Assembly: GCF_003985145.1 (NCBI RefSeq)
Contig: NZ_ML133521.1
Coordinates: 620,001 to 684,000, forward strand
Origin: Rhizobium anhuiense
Lineage (GTDB): Bacteria; Pseudomonadota; Alphaproteobacteria; Rhizobiales; Rhizobiaceae
Length of the DNA: 64,000 nt
Direction of reading: 5' to 3'
The position numbers were made by a program, and so were the translations under genes. Every line of letters begins with the position of its first letter. Position 1 is the first letter of the stretch. Below, piece by piece: positions 7,640-62,908 of the stretch. The notes under the pieces were generated by a model. That model did not search any database. It was not told the origin of the DNA and saw only the letters and a list, made by a program, of their open reading frames with translations.

Positions 7640-7852
7640 ATGTCTGTGCCAAACGAACCCATCGTGCCGCCGCCATCGCCACCGCCCGTCGACACGCCAC
7701 CGCGCGATCCTGACCGGATACCCGGCGAGGAACCGCTTCCCGATCCCGAGCCCGACGAGGGCGCTTCTCCAAGAACACGCGCTTCCGTACATCGCCCGAC
7801 GTGGGACCTTCTTTGCAGAGGCATTCGTCTTCAGCCGGAGAACGGGCAATGA
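7640..7852 (+). CDS. Small proline-rich hypothetical protein
   Basis: 70 residues, starting MSVPNEPIVPPPSPPPVDTP. The first two thirds are rich in Pro, Asp and Glu and probably unstructured. A strong ribosome binding site (GAGGAGGA) lies 5 bases before the ATG. The stop overlaps the next start (ATGA), so the two genes are coupled. The consensus EcfG-type promoter just upstream suggests induction in the general stress response. Similar short Pro/Asp-rich proteins are common in rhizobia, and no function is known to me. Confidence 0.7.
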   Translation: MSVPNEPIVPPPSPPPVDTPPRDPDRIPGEEPLPDPEPDEGASPRTRASVHRPTWDLLCRGIRLQPENGQ

Positions 7853-8049
7853 CCAAGGACTGGCGCGACGACCTGAGCCTGAAGCTCGAAGATTTCGTCG
7901 ACACGTTCGTGGTTAAAGGCGCAAAGGCAACGGAGGTCTACGATGCCATACAGAACGAACTTGACCGCCTGAGGGTCGCGTACGACCGGGACCCGGATCC
8001 CGCAGACGACCAATCGGACGACGTTGTCGAGGAACCGTCAAACGACTAG
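7849..8049 (+). CDS. Small acidic hypothetical protein
   Basis: 66 residues: MTKDWRDDLSLKLEDFVDTF, a probable helix, then an Asp/Glu-rich tail. The start overlaps the previous stop (ATGA), with GGAG about 9 bases upstream. Being the second gene of a two-gene unit behind an EcfG-type promoter, it is probably a stress-induced protein. No domain is recognised. Confidence 0.7.
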   Translation: MTKDWRDDLSLKLEDFVDTFVVKGAKATEVYDAIQNELDRLRVAYDRDPDPADDQSDDVVEEPSND

Positions 8050-8147
8050 CCGGCTTCCCAGGCCTGACCCACGCGCGGGAAGACGGCCGGCAATCCTTCG
8101 GGAAATTTTCTAGTTGAGACTTGTTGCGGACACACTTCAGGTAGAAC

Positions 8148-8284
8148 TCTCCCACAGGCCTTGCTGATGCGCGCTGAATTCGCTGCTCGCAACGCCGCAT
8201 CGCTGAAATGCTTTTGATCGCGGATGTACTGGCACTGGTCAGAAGGCGATGATGGGTCGGTGCGGTTTCTACCCGGCCTTTTTT
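8148..8284 (+). ncRNA. Candidate small RNA, copy A, with Rho-independent terminator
   Basis: The last ~75 bases closely match the reverse strand at 32955-33040. The shared parts are a GGATGTACTGGCACTGGT block at 8223-8240, then a terminator made of GGTCGG, a short loop, CCGGCC and six T (8255-8284). In the final 36 bases, 32 are identical. Weaker similarity extends up to about 8158. No open reading frame is shared. The 5' end is a guess, since only poor -35/-10 matches are seen near 8114-8145. Two diverged copies that both keep a terminator argue for a trans-acting RNA. It may belong to one of the plasmid-borne alphaproteobacterial sRNA families, but I cannot confirm which. Confidence 0.6.
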
Positions 8285-8299
8285 GTTGCCTGAGAGGCC

Positions 8300-8312
8300 G
8301 GGGGGGGGGGGG
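8300..8312. repeat. Homopolymer of 13 G
   Basis: Uninterrupted run of 13 G between the copy A terminator and the stop of the leftward small gene at 8326. It is prone to slippage or sequencing error and does not disturb a recognised gene. Confidence 0.9.
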
Positions 8313-14111: not shown

Positions 14112-14832
14112 ATGGCAGAAGATATTCTTCTACGTCATGCGGCGTCCGTCATGGGAGGCCGACATGAACGCAATCCCATCTGCTTCACAACGCTACCCAC
14201 CCAGGGCTGCAGGGCAATCGGACGCCGGCCAGCTGCGTCTGCCGCCATGCGATAGGCACTTTCGACGTCACGGCACTGTAGCGATTTCGCGTGTCGTTGA
14301 TCCCACGTTCAATTCGATTGGCGACATTGAAATTTCGCCCGATCGCCCCGCCTCGTATGACGCTCCCGTGGGGATGTAAAATGATGCCATGAAGCCGGCA
14401 CCGAGATCGAATGTTGGCCCGCAAAAGAGGACCGCGAAGAAACGTTCGTGCCTAAGCTTGAGCCTCGGCCGGCCGACCTGTCTTCGATTTGTCGAACGTG
14501 ATGCGCTGCCACTCGCATCCTTGGAATTCTAGCCGGTCCATACCGAGCCGACTGCCTCCTGCGCCTGCCGCCGGTCAGACGAAGCGGAACCAGCACAGCG
14601 ACGCGAATGCTCCCGTCGGCGCCAGGTTGGCATTGTCACGATTCGCAATTGGCGCTGGATGCAACCCCCTGATGGTACGCGCGGACGGCTTTGCTATGTG
14701 TCGTTTGTAAGCAACGAGAATAATCAGGCCCACGGCGACCGAAGTAAATAAAGTTAATTCTAAATTAGCCAATCGGGCGAATTCTCGCAGCTACGTGACC
14801 CGCGCGGTCGTCCTCAGGAGCTGGAGATCCGA
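14112..14832. other. Spacer upstream of the chemoreceptor
   Basis: About 720 bases. A frame from ATG 14164 to 14379 has a good GGGAGG upstream, but its product has a composition not typical of a protein. A leftward TTG frame ending at 14575 would begin with a hydrophobic helix but lacks a ribosome binding site. Neither is called. The last ~130 bases before 14833 are AT-rich and probably hold the chemoreceptor promoter. Confidence 0.4.
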
Positions 14833-17765: not shown

Positions 17766-18239
17766 TTAAGCCGCCTGCTGCTTGCCCTCGATCTGCTTGG
17801 TCTCGGCCTTCGGCATCTGGCCGGTTCGGATCTCGATCTGGCGCGGCTTCATCTCTTCAGGGATTTCGCGCTTGAGATCGACGGTCAGCAGACCGTTGAC
17901 GAAACCCGCACTCACGACCCTGACATGGTCGGCTAGTTCGAAGCGACGCTGGAACGAGCCGCTGGCGATGCCGCGGTGCAGATATTGGAGGTCATCGTCG
18001 CTCGCCTTCTGTCCCGAGACGATGAGCATGTTCTGCTCTTGAGTCATCGCCAGCTCGTCCTGTGAGAAGCCCGCCAGTGCCATGACAATGCGGTAATCAT
18101 TCTCGCCAGCTTTGACGATATCGTAAGGCGGCCAACTGTCGCTCGTCTCGGCGCGGCTTGCAGCCTCGAGCGCGTTGAACATCCGGTCGAAGCCTATGCT
18201 CGATCGGAACAGGGGTGAGAAATCGAGGTTTGTCCTCAT
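17766..18239 (-). CDS. ibpA: Small heat-shock protein, IbpA-like
   Basis: 157 residues starting MRTNLDFSPLFRSSIGFDRM, the typical opening of rhizobial IbpA-like Hsp20 proteins. The alpha-crystallin domain spans about residues 30-130 (YDIVKAGENDYRIVMALAGFSQDELAMTQEQNMLIVSGQK, then IASGSFQRRFELADHVRV and GLLTVDLKREIP). The ATG at 18239 was chosen over the in-frame ATG at 18245 because AAGGAGG lies 8 bases before it but only 2 bases before 18245. The leader forms a ROSE-type thermometer, so translation should rise at high temperature, and an RpoH-like promoter lies further upstream. Confidence 0.95.
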   Translation of the reverse strand: MRTNLDFSPLFRSSIGFDRMFNALEAASRAETSDSWPPYDIVKAGENDYRIVMALAGFSQDELAMTQEQNMLIVSGQKASDDDLQYLHRGIASGSFQRRFELADHVRVVSAGFVNGLLTVDLKREIPEEMKPRQIEIRTGQMPKAETKQIEGKQQAA

Positions 18240-18245
18240 AGCCAT

Positions 18246-18300
18246 ATCCTCCTTATAAGCAACATGGATACAAGGAGACGCCAAGAGCAACGGCGTCTCC
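18246..18300 (-). promoter_or_regulatory. ROSE-type RNA thermometer
   Basis: In the leader of the IbpA-like gene, a perfect 9-base hairpin (GGAGACGCC, 9-base loop, GGCGTCTCC; 18274-18300) is followed by a second segment where TTGCT faces AAGGAGG just before the start. The known ROSE element of rhizobial small heat-shock genes has exactly this arrangement: upstream hairpins plus a final weak hairpin in which U(U/C)GCU pairs with the ribosome binding site. Confidence 0.75.
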
Positions 18301-18341
18301 TGGACCTGTGTCAATCCCCATTGGGCAATCGACTAATATCG

Positions 18342-28686: not shown

Positions 28687-29005
28687 TCAGAAGACCGAAA
28701 CGTTCTCAGCCTTCGACTTTCCGGTCTTGCGGTCCTCCGACCTCGAAGCTGACCTTATCGCCTTCGCGCAGCGAACGGCCGCGTTGCAAGGCAGAGACGT
28801 GAACAAACACATCCTGTCCGCCGCCCTCAGGCGTGATGAAGCCGAAGCCCTTGTCGCAGCGCTCAGCCGGCACGTTTCCGAGCACATCCGGCCGATGCGC
28901 CTCCAGCTCGCGGATGCGAACGATAAGGGCTCCACTATCCGCCCTGCCTCAAGAACAGGCGCCTGTTTGCCCCTGCTGGATTTTCGTTATCAGTGTCGTT
29001 GCCAT
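28687..29005 (-). pseudogene. Cold-shock domain protein, disrupted
   Basis: The ATG at 29005 gives MATTLITKIQQGQTGACS and then an in-frame TGA. The same frame continues to a clear cold-shock core, [42 protein letters not shown] one-base shift near 28735 then moves the conserved tail [16 protein letters not shown] into another frame. Translation from a GTG at 28885 would still make a 59-residue protein with the FGF and FVH RNA-binding motifs but no usual TGTVKWF strand and an altered end. So it is either a pseudogene or a shortened, divergent cold-shock protein. Confidence 0.65.
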
Positions 29006-32561: not shown

Positions 32562-32954
32562 TCGCCGCCGCAGGGAAGTATGCAATTGATTTTTTTAAAT
32601 ATACGGCGACGAGACCCCGAAATAACACTATCCCTCCCGGTGCCGCGGCAAAACGAGCGGACAATGAGGCGTGGAGCGACCGACCTCCAATGAGCAATTC
32701 AAAAGCCTCACATAGGCGATGGGACTTTTAACTCCTAAAGTTGTGCTTTCCTTTGCACAGGAGATTAAGGCGAGACATTTTTTACCGGCCCAAAGAGTCT
32801 CGGCCCGGCCGAACCGCTGCCGATTTATTCGCCGAGGTCGCGGCGTGCCAACCGGACGTTACGGAGATGGTGAACGCACCGGTTTTTTCCGAATTCTCGG
32901 TGCGCGAGCGCCGTCAAACGCGGGGCCAAGCTCTCTACCCCGAGCAGCGGGCAA

Positions 32955-33095
32955 TAAAAAAGGCCGGGGCGAAATCGCACCGACCTTTCCAACATCGCTC
33001 TTCACACCAGTGCCAGTACATCCGTGGTCAAAAGCAGATAAGCGACTTCGGCAGTCGCGAACACTCGCGTGGAGCACTCACCAGCAACGCCGATG
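32955..33095 (-). ncRNA. Candidate small RNA, copy B, with promoter and terminator
   Basis: Leftward transcript predicted from a good promoter: CTTGAA (33125-33130), 17 bases, CTATCT (33102-33107). It ends at a terminator formed by GGTCGG, a loop, CCGGCC and TTTTTT (about 32956-32985). The body shares GGATGTACTGGCACTGGT (33009-33026) and adjacent bases with copy A at 8148-8284, and the last 36 bases differ at only four positions. Length about 140 nt. No shared reading frame exists. Distinct position and strand with conserved core and terminator make an RNA gene likely. Confidence 0.7.
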
Positions 33096-33181
33096 ATCCG
33101 TAGATAGCTTCGGGTTATGTTCAATTCAAGTCCCCCGGCAAAACGGGCGCATAAACCTGCCAACCATCAAATGGACGTCCG

Positions 33182-51096: not shown

Positions 51097-51998
51097 GACC
51101 TATCCTTCGGTCGTGCCGTCCAAAAGGATCATCGGCGATCGCCCTTCCGACATGGCACGGATTGGTGTCCATATCTATCTTGACAGGCAGGTTTAGCGTG
51201 TTCGGGGGAACGGCGATGCCTGGGTGAACTGCGGACCCGGCGTCGCACATAGCATCCAGTATTAGAGAGTTCAAGTGGAACGGAGGACCCTTGACGGTTC
51301 TGCTACGGAGCGCGGAATGATGCGCGTCCATCCTGTCGATTGTAGACGGGCTCTAGTTGTCACCCGGATCATTATGCTGTCCCTCGCGACGATAAGCGGC
51401 TCATAATGATCTGATATACCAACCTAATGCGTCCTGATCTAAGGGCTTGCTTATTGAACCCCCGAACAAGGCCGCGCATACTGGAGATCCCCGCTGATTG
51501 CCTCGCAAGAGCGACCCAGCACAATCATACGCTTTCGGTCGTGTTTTGAAGCACGGACAGGACATCTCCCTCAACGTCGTGATGACTTCGAGCGGAGGAC
51601 GATCCGTCAGAGCCGTGTGCATGGCGGGGCGCGTCATGGGTCTAGACCGGCAGCGCGACAGCCGTTATCTACGGAGTCCGTCGCGGTGCTGAAGACATCG
51701 CTGGAACATCACCGCAGACACCCAAGGCCTCTTAGTGAAAAAACTCCAACGCAGTTTTGTTGTCGAACACAAATCGGGTCGGCGAAGAACCGAGAGCAAA
51801 TCGAATTCGATCTGGGGAGACATGGATCTCAAGTCCATCGCTCAAGATGTGCAGGAAGAGGCAATGCTCTTTCCGCCGGTAGGCTTCCAGGTTGGCAAAC
51901 CAGGCGGTGAGCTATCTCTGCCCGAACGGGGACAGCCGGGAGTGTTGACACTGCCGGCCCGACAGCGGACAACTGAAGCGGCTTTACAGGAGACCATA
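51097..51998. other. Long gene-poor spacer upstream of the SyrB-like gene
   Basis: About 900 bases without a convincing gene. An in-frame extension of the SyrB-like gene from 51735 (MDLKSIAQDVQEEAMLFPPVGF...) lacks family similarity. It may be a decayed region or an unusually long leader. Confidence 0.4.
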
Positions 51999-62512: not shown

Positions 62513-62636
62513 GTCCGGGGACGGGCCACGGTATAGGTGATCTCCTCTTTGCCTCAGTCGAAGAGGGCAAGTGCGGCAAGACAGGCTGCCGCGAAAGAAA
62601 ACTTCCCTCATGCTTCGCTGCTGACGCAGAAAAATA

Positions 62637-62662
62637 GGGCCACTGGAAAACCAGGGCCCTTT
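62637..62662 (+). terminator. Rho-independent terminator of sugar operon 2
   Basis: Arms GGGCC, bulged A, CTGG and CCAG, GGCCC around AAAA, followed by TTT. Good rightward terminator about 125 bases after the permease stop. The rest of 62513-62908 shows no gene. Confidence 0.65.
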
Positions 62663-62908
62663 AAGGTGTGAAGGTCAATGAACCTCCAGAGGGGAACAGC
62701 TGATGCGATGGCACTGGGAGGAAAACCATCAGCTGCATCAACTGAAGGCAATATGCACATATTTTGACCGGCTGGTAAAATATTTATTATGCAGTGCAGC
62801 TATGCGGAAAAGGGAGAGCCGCATCATCCAGACGGGACGGAGCCCATGTGGAACTGTTCCTCCTACCATTCGCCAGCATACGCGCGCCGACGCAGTACCT
62901 GCCGGCGA

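Follow-up and report, generated by a model that had tools for sequence, protein, structure and literature searches.

The 64,000-nucleotide stretch of Rhizobium anhuiense DNA analysed here (the window) carries two similar intergenic segments, some 25 kb apart and on opposite strands, which raise the question of what kind of RNA such a pair encodes and what the part common to both might do. A sequence-only reading had proposed a two-copy family of trans-acting small RNAs, possibly belonging to one of the plasmid-borne alpha-r families of Alphaproteobacteria. Both segments are found at the positions given in that reading, and an Rfam scan of the whole window places both in the ar35 family (RF02346, gathering cutoff 45 bits), in agreement with the suspicion of a conserved alpha-r RNA. 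Copy A extends from 8154 to 8287 on the forward strand (59.5 bits, E 1.7e-8; 59.5 bits again when rescored in a small stretch) and copy B from 33094 to 32953 on the reverse strand (129.5 bits, E 1.9e-24, full length), both spanning model positions 1-144, and these E-values put the similarity of the two copies far beyond chance. The shared features noticed earlier are also in place, namely an identical 18-base block, GGATGTACTGGCACTGGT, and T6-tailed terminators (GGTCGGTGCGGTTTCTACCCGGCC-T6 in copy A, GGTCGGTGCGATTTCGCCCCGGCC-T6 in copy B). Both copies also have the GGAUGUA loop of the second hairpin.

Two ar35 loci of unequal quality

The ar35 family corresponds to SmrB35, also called SmelB053, of the Sinorhizobium meliloti megaplasmid pSymB. 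In the portions of the literature consulted, SmrB35 is described in a 2007 report as a 139-nt RNA whose level is raised about 4-fold by luteolin (PMC2780559), a second copy 3 kb away and 64% identical was added in 2008 (PMC2573895), smrB35 is stated to be overlapped to 97% by SmelB053 (PMC2873474), and a table row for SmelB053 names RpoD and RpoH1/2 (PMC7143759); no target of SmrB35 was found in these passages. A further passage describes a multicopy family with a GGAUGUA loop and and a set of 33 similar 3'UTRs, 29 of which belong to cold-shock genes, and puts forward the idea that the sRNAs sequester decay complexes (PMC3927594). Both window copies share with ar35/SmrB35 a covariance match over the full length of the model, the three-hairpin layout, the GGAUGUA loop, the terminator and the occurrence in several copies per genome; no difference was found for copy B, whereas copy A is divergent and has a wobble-paired apex.

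Copy B (32953-33094, reverse strand) has the features of a typical, intact ar35 gene. It lies between an unnamed ORF that follows a YflT-domain gene and a gene for a response-regulator receiver (named from Pfam) upstream of ligD, and the promoter credited to it earlier, CTTGAA-N17-CTATCT (33102-33130), is indeed there, separated by 7 nt from the start of the Rfam match, and is good by sequence. When 22 ar35 loci were scanned, with CTTGAA/CTATAT itself as the scoring standard, CTTGAA came out as the best -35 element at 10 of them. The intrinsic terminator (32956-32985) is supported by an RNAfold helix and by the Rfam alignment, and the stretch from promoter to terminator is about 93% identical in the Rhizobium leguminosarum plasmids listed as matches.

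Copy A (8154-8287, forward strand), which is flanked by an unnamed ORF (7801-8049) and, on its other side, by a second unnamed ORF followed by two ku genes identified with Pfam, is a divergent paralogue that looks partly decayed, perhaps still in the course of decay. Its promoter-like site, CTTGTT-N17-AGAACT (8120-8148), is a weak match to the consensus alone, the five bases before the terminator that are kept in five of six aligned relatives are absent, and the predicted fold is no better than that of shuffled sequences (z 0.29, against -3.16 for copy B). In addition, copy A has TGATCGCGG where four of six relatives have TGACCACGG, and its apical stem is held only through two wobbles, U-G and G-U. 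The terminator (8254-8284; row L052) consists of a hairpin of -11.9 kcal/mol and a T6 tail. The named record closest to the window is Rhizobium anhuiense T24, in which a single megaplasmid, pRA_T24_1, carries both copies (100% of a 251-base query and 96.1% of a 231-base query), and T24 likewise lacks the five bases of copy A. Shortly past the terminator, at 8300-8312, stands a run of 13 G, which could be a length-variable tract or a weakness of the assembly.

Copy-A-type ar35 adjoins ku on other Rhizobium plasmids too; ar35 with ku as a neighbour was noted at L329, L330, L362 and L363. Overall ku stands beside ar35 in four of five annotated Rhizobium plasmid regions and was not seen within 600 nt in the fifth (two more regions carry no annotation), and a tblastn search with the window neighbours recovered it at one other strong ar35 locus (L014). 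As a functional clue this linkage was set aside and taken as local synteny. The stress connection suggested earlier is plausible all the same, given the sigma factors named for SmelB053 and the recurrence of ku.

The hairpin module and its contexts

The description of a two-copy family does not hold, since the common core occurs in this genome at 11 places with at most two mismatches. The core is a 20-nt hairpin module with a bulged A and a GAUGUA-type loop, which stands in copy A as TGATCGCGGATGTACTGGCA (8215-8234, forward strand; one mismatch to the pattern; 32.5 bits with covariance model R1) and in copy B as the consensus TGACCACGGATGTACTGGCA (33011-33030, reverse strand; no mismatch; 44.6 bits), with a single R1 match in each window copy. 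At up to three mismatches, the pattern TTGACCRCGGATGNACTGGCA is met at 12 places, the reversed control being at 0 for both thresholds; the twelfth match (C1:438686), the sole one with three mismatches, is probably due to chance, being part of an open frame of repetitive sequence. Four of the 11 copies are in 3'UTRs of cold-shock (csp) genes (C1:1246896, C3:127323, C8:40005 and C8:193556), six stand free, each with a terminator (the two in the window, C2:329286, C2:541605, C15:72834 and C15:87659), and the remaining one precedes another operon (C3:24843). The ar35 model itself matches eight places in the 7.12 Mb genome, six above its cutoff; three of the eight are csp 3'UTRs, which the model also accepts above cutoff, for example at 49.6 bits. 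The idea that the shared core is that of an sRNA needs widening, in that the same hairpin belongs to cold-shock mRNAs and to another operon. Cold-shock domains are matched 11 times in the genome, two of the matches being within one protein. In the window, the two copies have between them a csp-like gene whose cold-shock domain is partial (28718-28858, reverse strand), with no module after it, and an R1 match at 14554-14589 (16.7 bits) was taken as chance. The csp 3'UTR at C3:127323 (L041) contains three tandem UGACCA-loop-UGGCA hairpins, the GGAUGUAC loop being confined to the central one.

Across the order, an even sample of 297 genomes was searched with the pattern TGACCRCGGATGNACYGGCA at no more than one mismatch, and 52 of them proved to carry the module, with 112 places in all (none for the control), sorted by script into 63 csp 3'UTRs, 29 free-standing copies with a terminator and 20 places without one. 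A terminator follows in 62 of the 63 csp 3'UTRs. A csp gene lies within 800 nt upstream on the same strand at 63 of the 112 places, on the opposite strand at two and downstream at none, a bias which, together with the excess of G-U over A-C described below, rules out a mobile or REP-like DNA repeat. Among the 81 occurrences in the 80 listed of 118 named stretches, 45 are csp 3'UTRs, 30 are free with a terminator, four are upstream of the small-protein (s1) operon discussed below (two assigned by script and two, L230 and L257, on reading the flanks) and two are other. The ar35 model has at least one match in all 37 genomes of the genus and in one of 24 genomes of other families, and ar35 proper (94 bits or more) is present in 20 of the 37. 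Two modules 86 nt apart occur in one region of Martelella radicis (L263), and in one family (L062, L063 and L091) the module is beside neither csp nor s1, with a thiM-like gene, named by eye, near L062 and L063.

Beyond the order, the pattern is matched in 10 of 289 genomes of the class, this one included; the nine others hold five exact matches, all in csp 3'UTRs, and four one-mismatch matches at which csp was not found. Model R1 reaches 19 of the 289 at E of 0.01 or less, again with this genome included, the weakest of these matches being probably chance. Exact matches in the phylum amount to 13 of 299 genomes, and all 13 are within the class. Since each of the five exact matches beyond the order is in a csp 3'UTR, ar35 probably descends from such 3'UTRs. 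Rfam returns no name at the module of seven upstream loci (L059, L061, L083, L230, L256, L257 and L274) or of the submitted csp 3'UTRs from outside the order.

The consensus of the hairpin is UG(A)CCR-C-G[GAUGUA]C-YGGCA, with the A bulged. Covariation was followed in an alignment (A1) of 75 rows, for which the 112 places were reduced to 74 by thinning near-duplicates, five csp 3'UTRs of genomes beyond the order were included and four places (L065, L073, L076 and L137), which have one mismatch and neither csp nor a terminator, were removed as probable chance matches, though they still figure in the counts over 112 places. The lower stem covaries: pairing holds in 83.0% of cells (shuffles 69.4%), and both sides have changed in 173 cells (shuffles 79.3), with none of 500 shuffles reaching either value. 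Two further measures do not discriminate, namely the number of pairs with change on both sides (8 against 7.6, with 283 of 500 shuffles as high) and that of further pair types (39 against 35.8, 13 of 500 as high). When the partner is slid by one to three columns, pairing falls to 26.6-45.2%, and seven lower-stem pairs display five or six standard pair types. Compensatory change among homologues, which the earlier reading had proposed to look for, is observed. In the lower stem G-U exceeds A-C (62 against 28, p 4e-4), which points to the sense RNA as the strand that folds.

The apex of the hairpin is nearly constant in the same 75 rows, with A15 and the G14-C31 pair in all 75, C16-G30 and C17-G29 in 74 each, and A18-U28 replaced by G-C in six; these rows were chosen by the apex pattern, at no more than one mismatch, and the constancy is thus partly selection. 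A better sign is the sharp drop in matches beyond two mismatches in this genome, and R1 matches in csp 3'UTRs outside the order include three (L186, L187 and L201) in which the apical U13-A32 pair has become C-G. In terms of predicted folding, the apex pairs with a probability above 0.5 at 99 of the 112 places in 80-nt windows; taken by itself the 26-nt core fails to adopt the hairpin, and for the whole window copies RNAfold prefers other folds, by 2.2 kcal/mol for copy B and 4.8 for copy A. With its bulge and certain paired bases fixed while the stem below varies freely, the hairpin looks like a site of base-specific recognition.

Small-protein genes beside the module

In the upstream class, the module caps a very long hairpin without a terminator (z -5.1 to -6.3 in three examples, none of 200 shuffles being as stable), which would be part of a transcribed leader. 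The operon that follows encodes a protein of about 87 residues, whose gene was not found in L089, and then one of about 108 residues, s1. On the other side, in divergent orientation, L059, L086, L088, L107 and L109 have a gene that by eye is groES-like; none was seen at L061 and L083. A search with s1 gave weak matches (E about 1e-4) just downstream of the csp-module-terminator unit in two genomes, which led to the subfamily s2; hhalign relates s1 and s2 with a probability of 96.8 and an E-value of 2.2e-10 over 64 columns.

A gene of this family lies downstream on the same strand at 17 of the 112 places in the order (12 s1, 5 s2) and in at least 17 of the 118 named stretches, of which 9 have s2 and 8 have s1, including one broken s1 gene (a broken copy, L319, was excluded from A4). 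Within module-bearing genomes 18 of 53 family members are located within 1 kb of a module, a share biased upwards by the fact that A3 and the s1 query were built from module-adjacent genes, and 17 of these 18 follow the module in the same orientation at a distance of 96-489 nt. The homology of s1 and s2, two separately placed subfamilies, is free of this bias. A family member is present in 35 of 52 module-bearing genomes, with no homologue found in the other 17, against seven of 28 module-free genomes chosen for larger size, at least 3.8 Mb (p 4e-4, uncorrected for kinship); when only the s1 query is used, at E 0.001, the figures are 29 of 52 and 29 of 245 others. The linkage between module and small-protein genes is real, and the family is neither universal with the module nor confined to it.

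As to what these proteins are, no named family of Pfam or NCBIfam fits s1 or its operon partner, and a sequence search of the PDB yields nothing (best E 0.92). Weak Pfam matches include DUF1918 in three of 21 members (best E 2.4e-4) and the MLV integrase C-terminal, RapA Tudor and BAH domains in one member each, all four of which are SH3-like barrels; the weak names PIRC1_2, C3_CUB2, FixH and AP5B1_C, from the same 21 cores, look unrelated and were taken as chance. A first AlphaFold model of s1, built from four sequences, was discarded (pLDDT 41.9), and one of s2 from 18 sequences attained 66.8 overall and 69-83 in blocks of residues 1-60. The structures closest to this s2 model are Tudor, chromo-barrel, R67 DHFR and Spt5 folds, with Z of at most 7.6, values that may mean only a common arrangement, and Foldseek gave no match at E 0.001 (best E 0.018). 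The s1/s2 protein may, on these weak indications, be an SH3-like barrel.

A proposed portable recognition element and competing accounts

The explanation that we tentatively favour, while granting it somewhat less than an even chance, is that ar35 sRNAs supply, in trans, the element by which a factor recognises csp and small-protein mRNAs. The common core would then be a portable RNA recognition element, placed shortly after the csp stop codon and before the terminator, upstream of the s1 operon, or between csp and s2. A trans-acting factor, probably an RNA-binding protein, would recognise the apex and set the stability or translation of these mRNAs, and ar35 sRNAs made from their own promoters would present the same element and titrate the factor as decoys. 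The s1 and s2 proteins would be the first candidate binders, on the ground of linkage and because RNA-binding proteins often regulate their own messages, and the Csp proteins themselves could also be the factor. The selection inherent in the choice of rows by apex pattern has slightly lowered our confidence in this proposal, and the single site per window copy, few for a decoy, counts against the titration step.

The logic of this proposal resembles that of CsrA/RsmA and the CsrB/RsmZ sponges, in which GGA-bearing hairpins occur in both mRNAs and sRNAs. The sponges carry several GGA hairpins per sRNA, whereas each window copy has one module, with a bulged A. CsrA itself was rejected as the binder: CACGGAUG fits the CsrA consensus CANGGANG, but the CsrA domain (PF02599) was found neither in this genome nor in any of the 297 genomes of the order, with three of 14 control genomes positive. 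If the favoured explanation is correct, rhizobia, in which no CsrA was found, have a hairpin-protein-sponge circuit of their own. Taken to its full extent, the proposal would be that in Alphaproteobacteria lacking CsrA, small SH3-barrel proteins bind the bulged-A GAUGUA hairpin, control their own and csp mRNAs, and are titrated by ar35 sRNAs, derived from csp 3'UTRs, under heat or other stress, tying the cold-shock to the heat-shock response; in this complete form it is improbable. Tying the SmrB35 core to a covarying csp hairpin and a small-protein family would take this RNA from 'function unknown' to a single binding assay.

A somewhat unlikely account, and the strongest competitor, is that of an antisense sRNA family, in which the loop and its flanks (CGGAUGUAC) would serve as the seed, in ar35 as well as in sRNAs released from csp 3'UTRs, and pair with translation-initiation regions. 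The conserved loop, the intrinsic terminators and the multiple copies are typical traits of sRNAs that act by seed pairing, and the GGAUGUA loop motif was remarked upon in the accessible text of PMC3927594. A seed does not need the G-C, C-G and C-G pairs or the bulged A, but these are as constant as the loop in the pattern-selected set, over a lower stem that is free; moreover, the element also stands upstream of an operon without a terminator. SmrB35 gave no signal in Hfq co-immunoprecipitation, an outcome that the passage concerned ascribes to absence or low affinity (PMC2848018). A related thought, that the core ACTGGCAC mimics the csp start, ATG-ACC-ACTGGCAC, was dropped without a count, the stem partner explaining the same letters.

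Less likely still is the proposal, contained in a passage of PMC3927594, that the module is an mRNA-decay element, in which hairpin and terminator stabilise csp mRNAs and ar35 soaks up the decay machinery. Published by analogy with cspA of Escherichia coli, it agrees with a position after the csp stop codon and with the near-universal terminator there, but leaves unexplained both the constancy of the apex and its presence on long, terminator-less hairpins upstream of another operon. The least probable of these accounts holds that ar35 copies are functionless duplicates of csp 3'UTRs spread with plasmids, of which copy A at least is decaying: the weak -10, wobble-held apex, shuffle-like fold and missing bases of copy A all fit, as do the 17 genomes of the genus that do without strong ar35 and the csp context of the exact matches outside the order, but copy B is of full length with a good promoter and its promoter-to-terminator stretch is about 93% identical in the Rhizobium leguminosarum plasmids listed, and SmrB35 is transcribed and responds to luteolin according to the portion of PMC2780559 consulted.

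The element-and-factor explanation that we favour builds on what was already available, that is, the ar35 family and its link to 3'UTRs, published in 2011 (PMC3927594, seen in part). The csp 3'UTR hairpins of Rhizobiales described in the accessible part of that paper, such as SmelC521, have the second and third stem-loop in common with ar35, whereas the module as found here also occurs outside the order, upstream of another operon and in linkage with small-protein genes, features absent from that part. New in the present analysis are the module at the head of a small-protein operon and its position between csp and a homologous gene; in the titles and abstract openings of the open-access papers listed by the literature searches, neither the upstream class nor the small-protein link was found.

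The rhizobial sRNAs of the AbcR (ar15) and NfeR types, which act by single-stranded seed motifs, are likewise multicopy alphaproteobacterial RNAs, but ar15 is an Rfam family separate from ar35. The window also contains an ar15 gene, of AbcR type (62631-62743, reverse strand, 112.4 bits), and the same Rfam search identifies, on the reverse strand, a ROSE heat-shock RNA thermometer (18233-18332, 62.8 bits) and a COG3860 cis-regulatory RNA (51185-51238, 66.3 bits).
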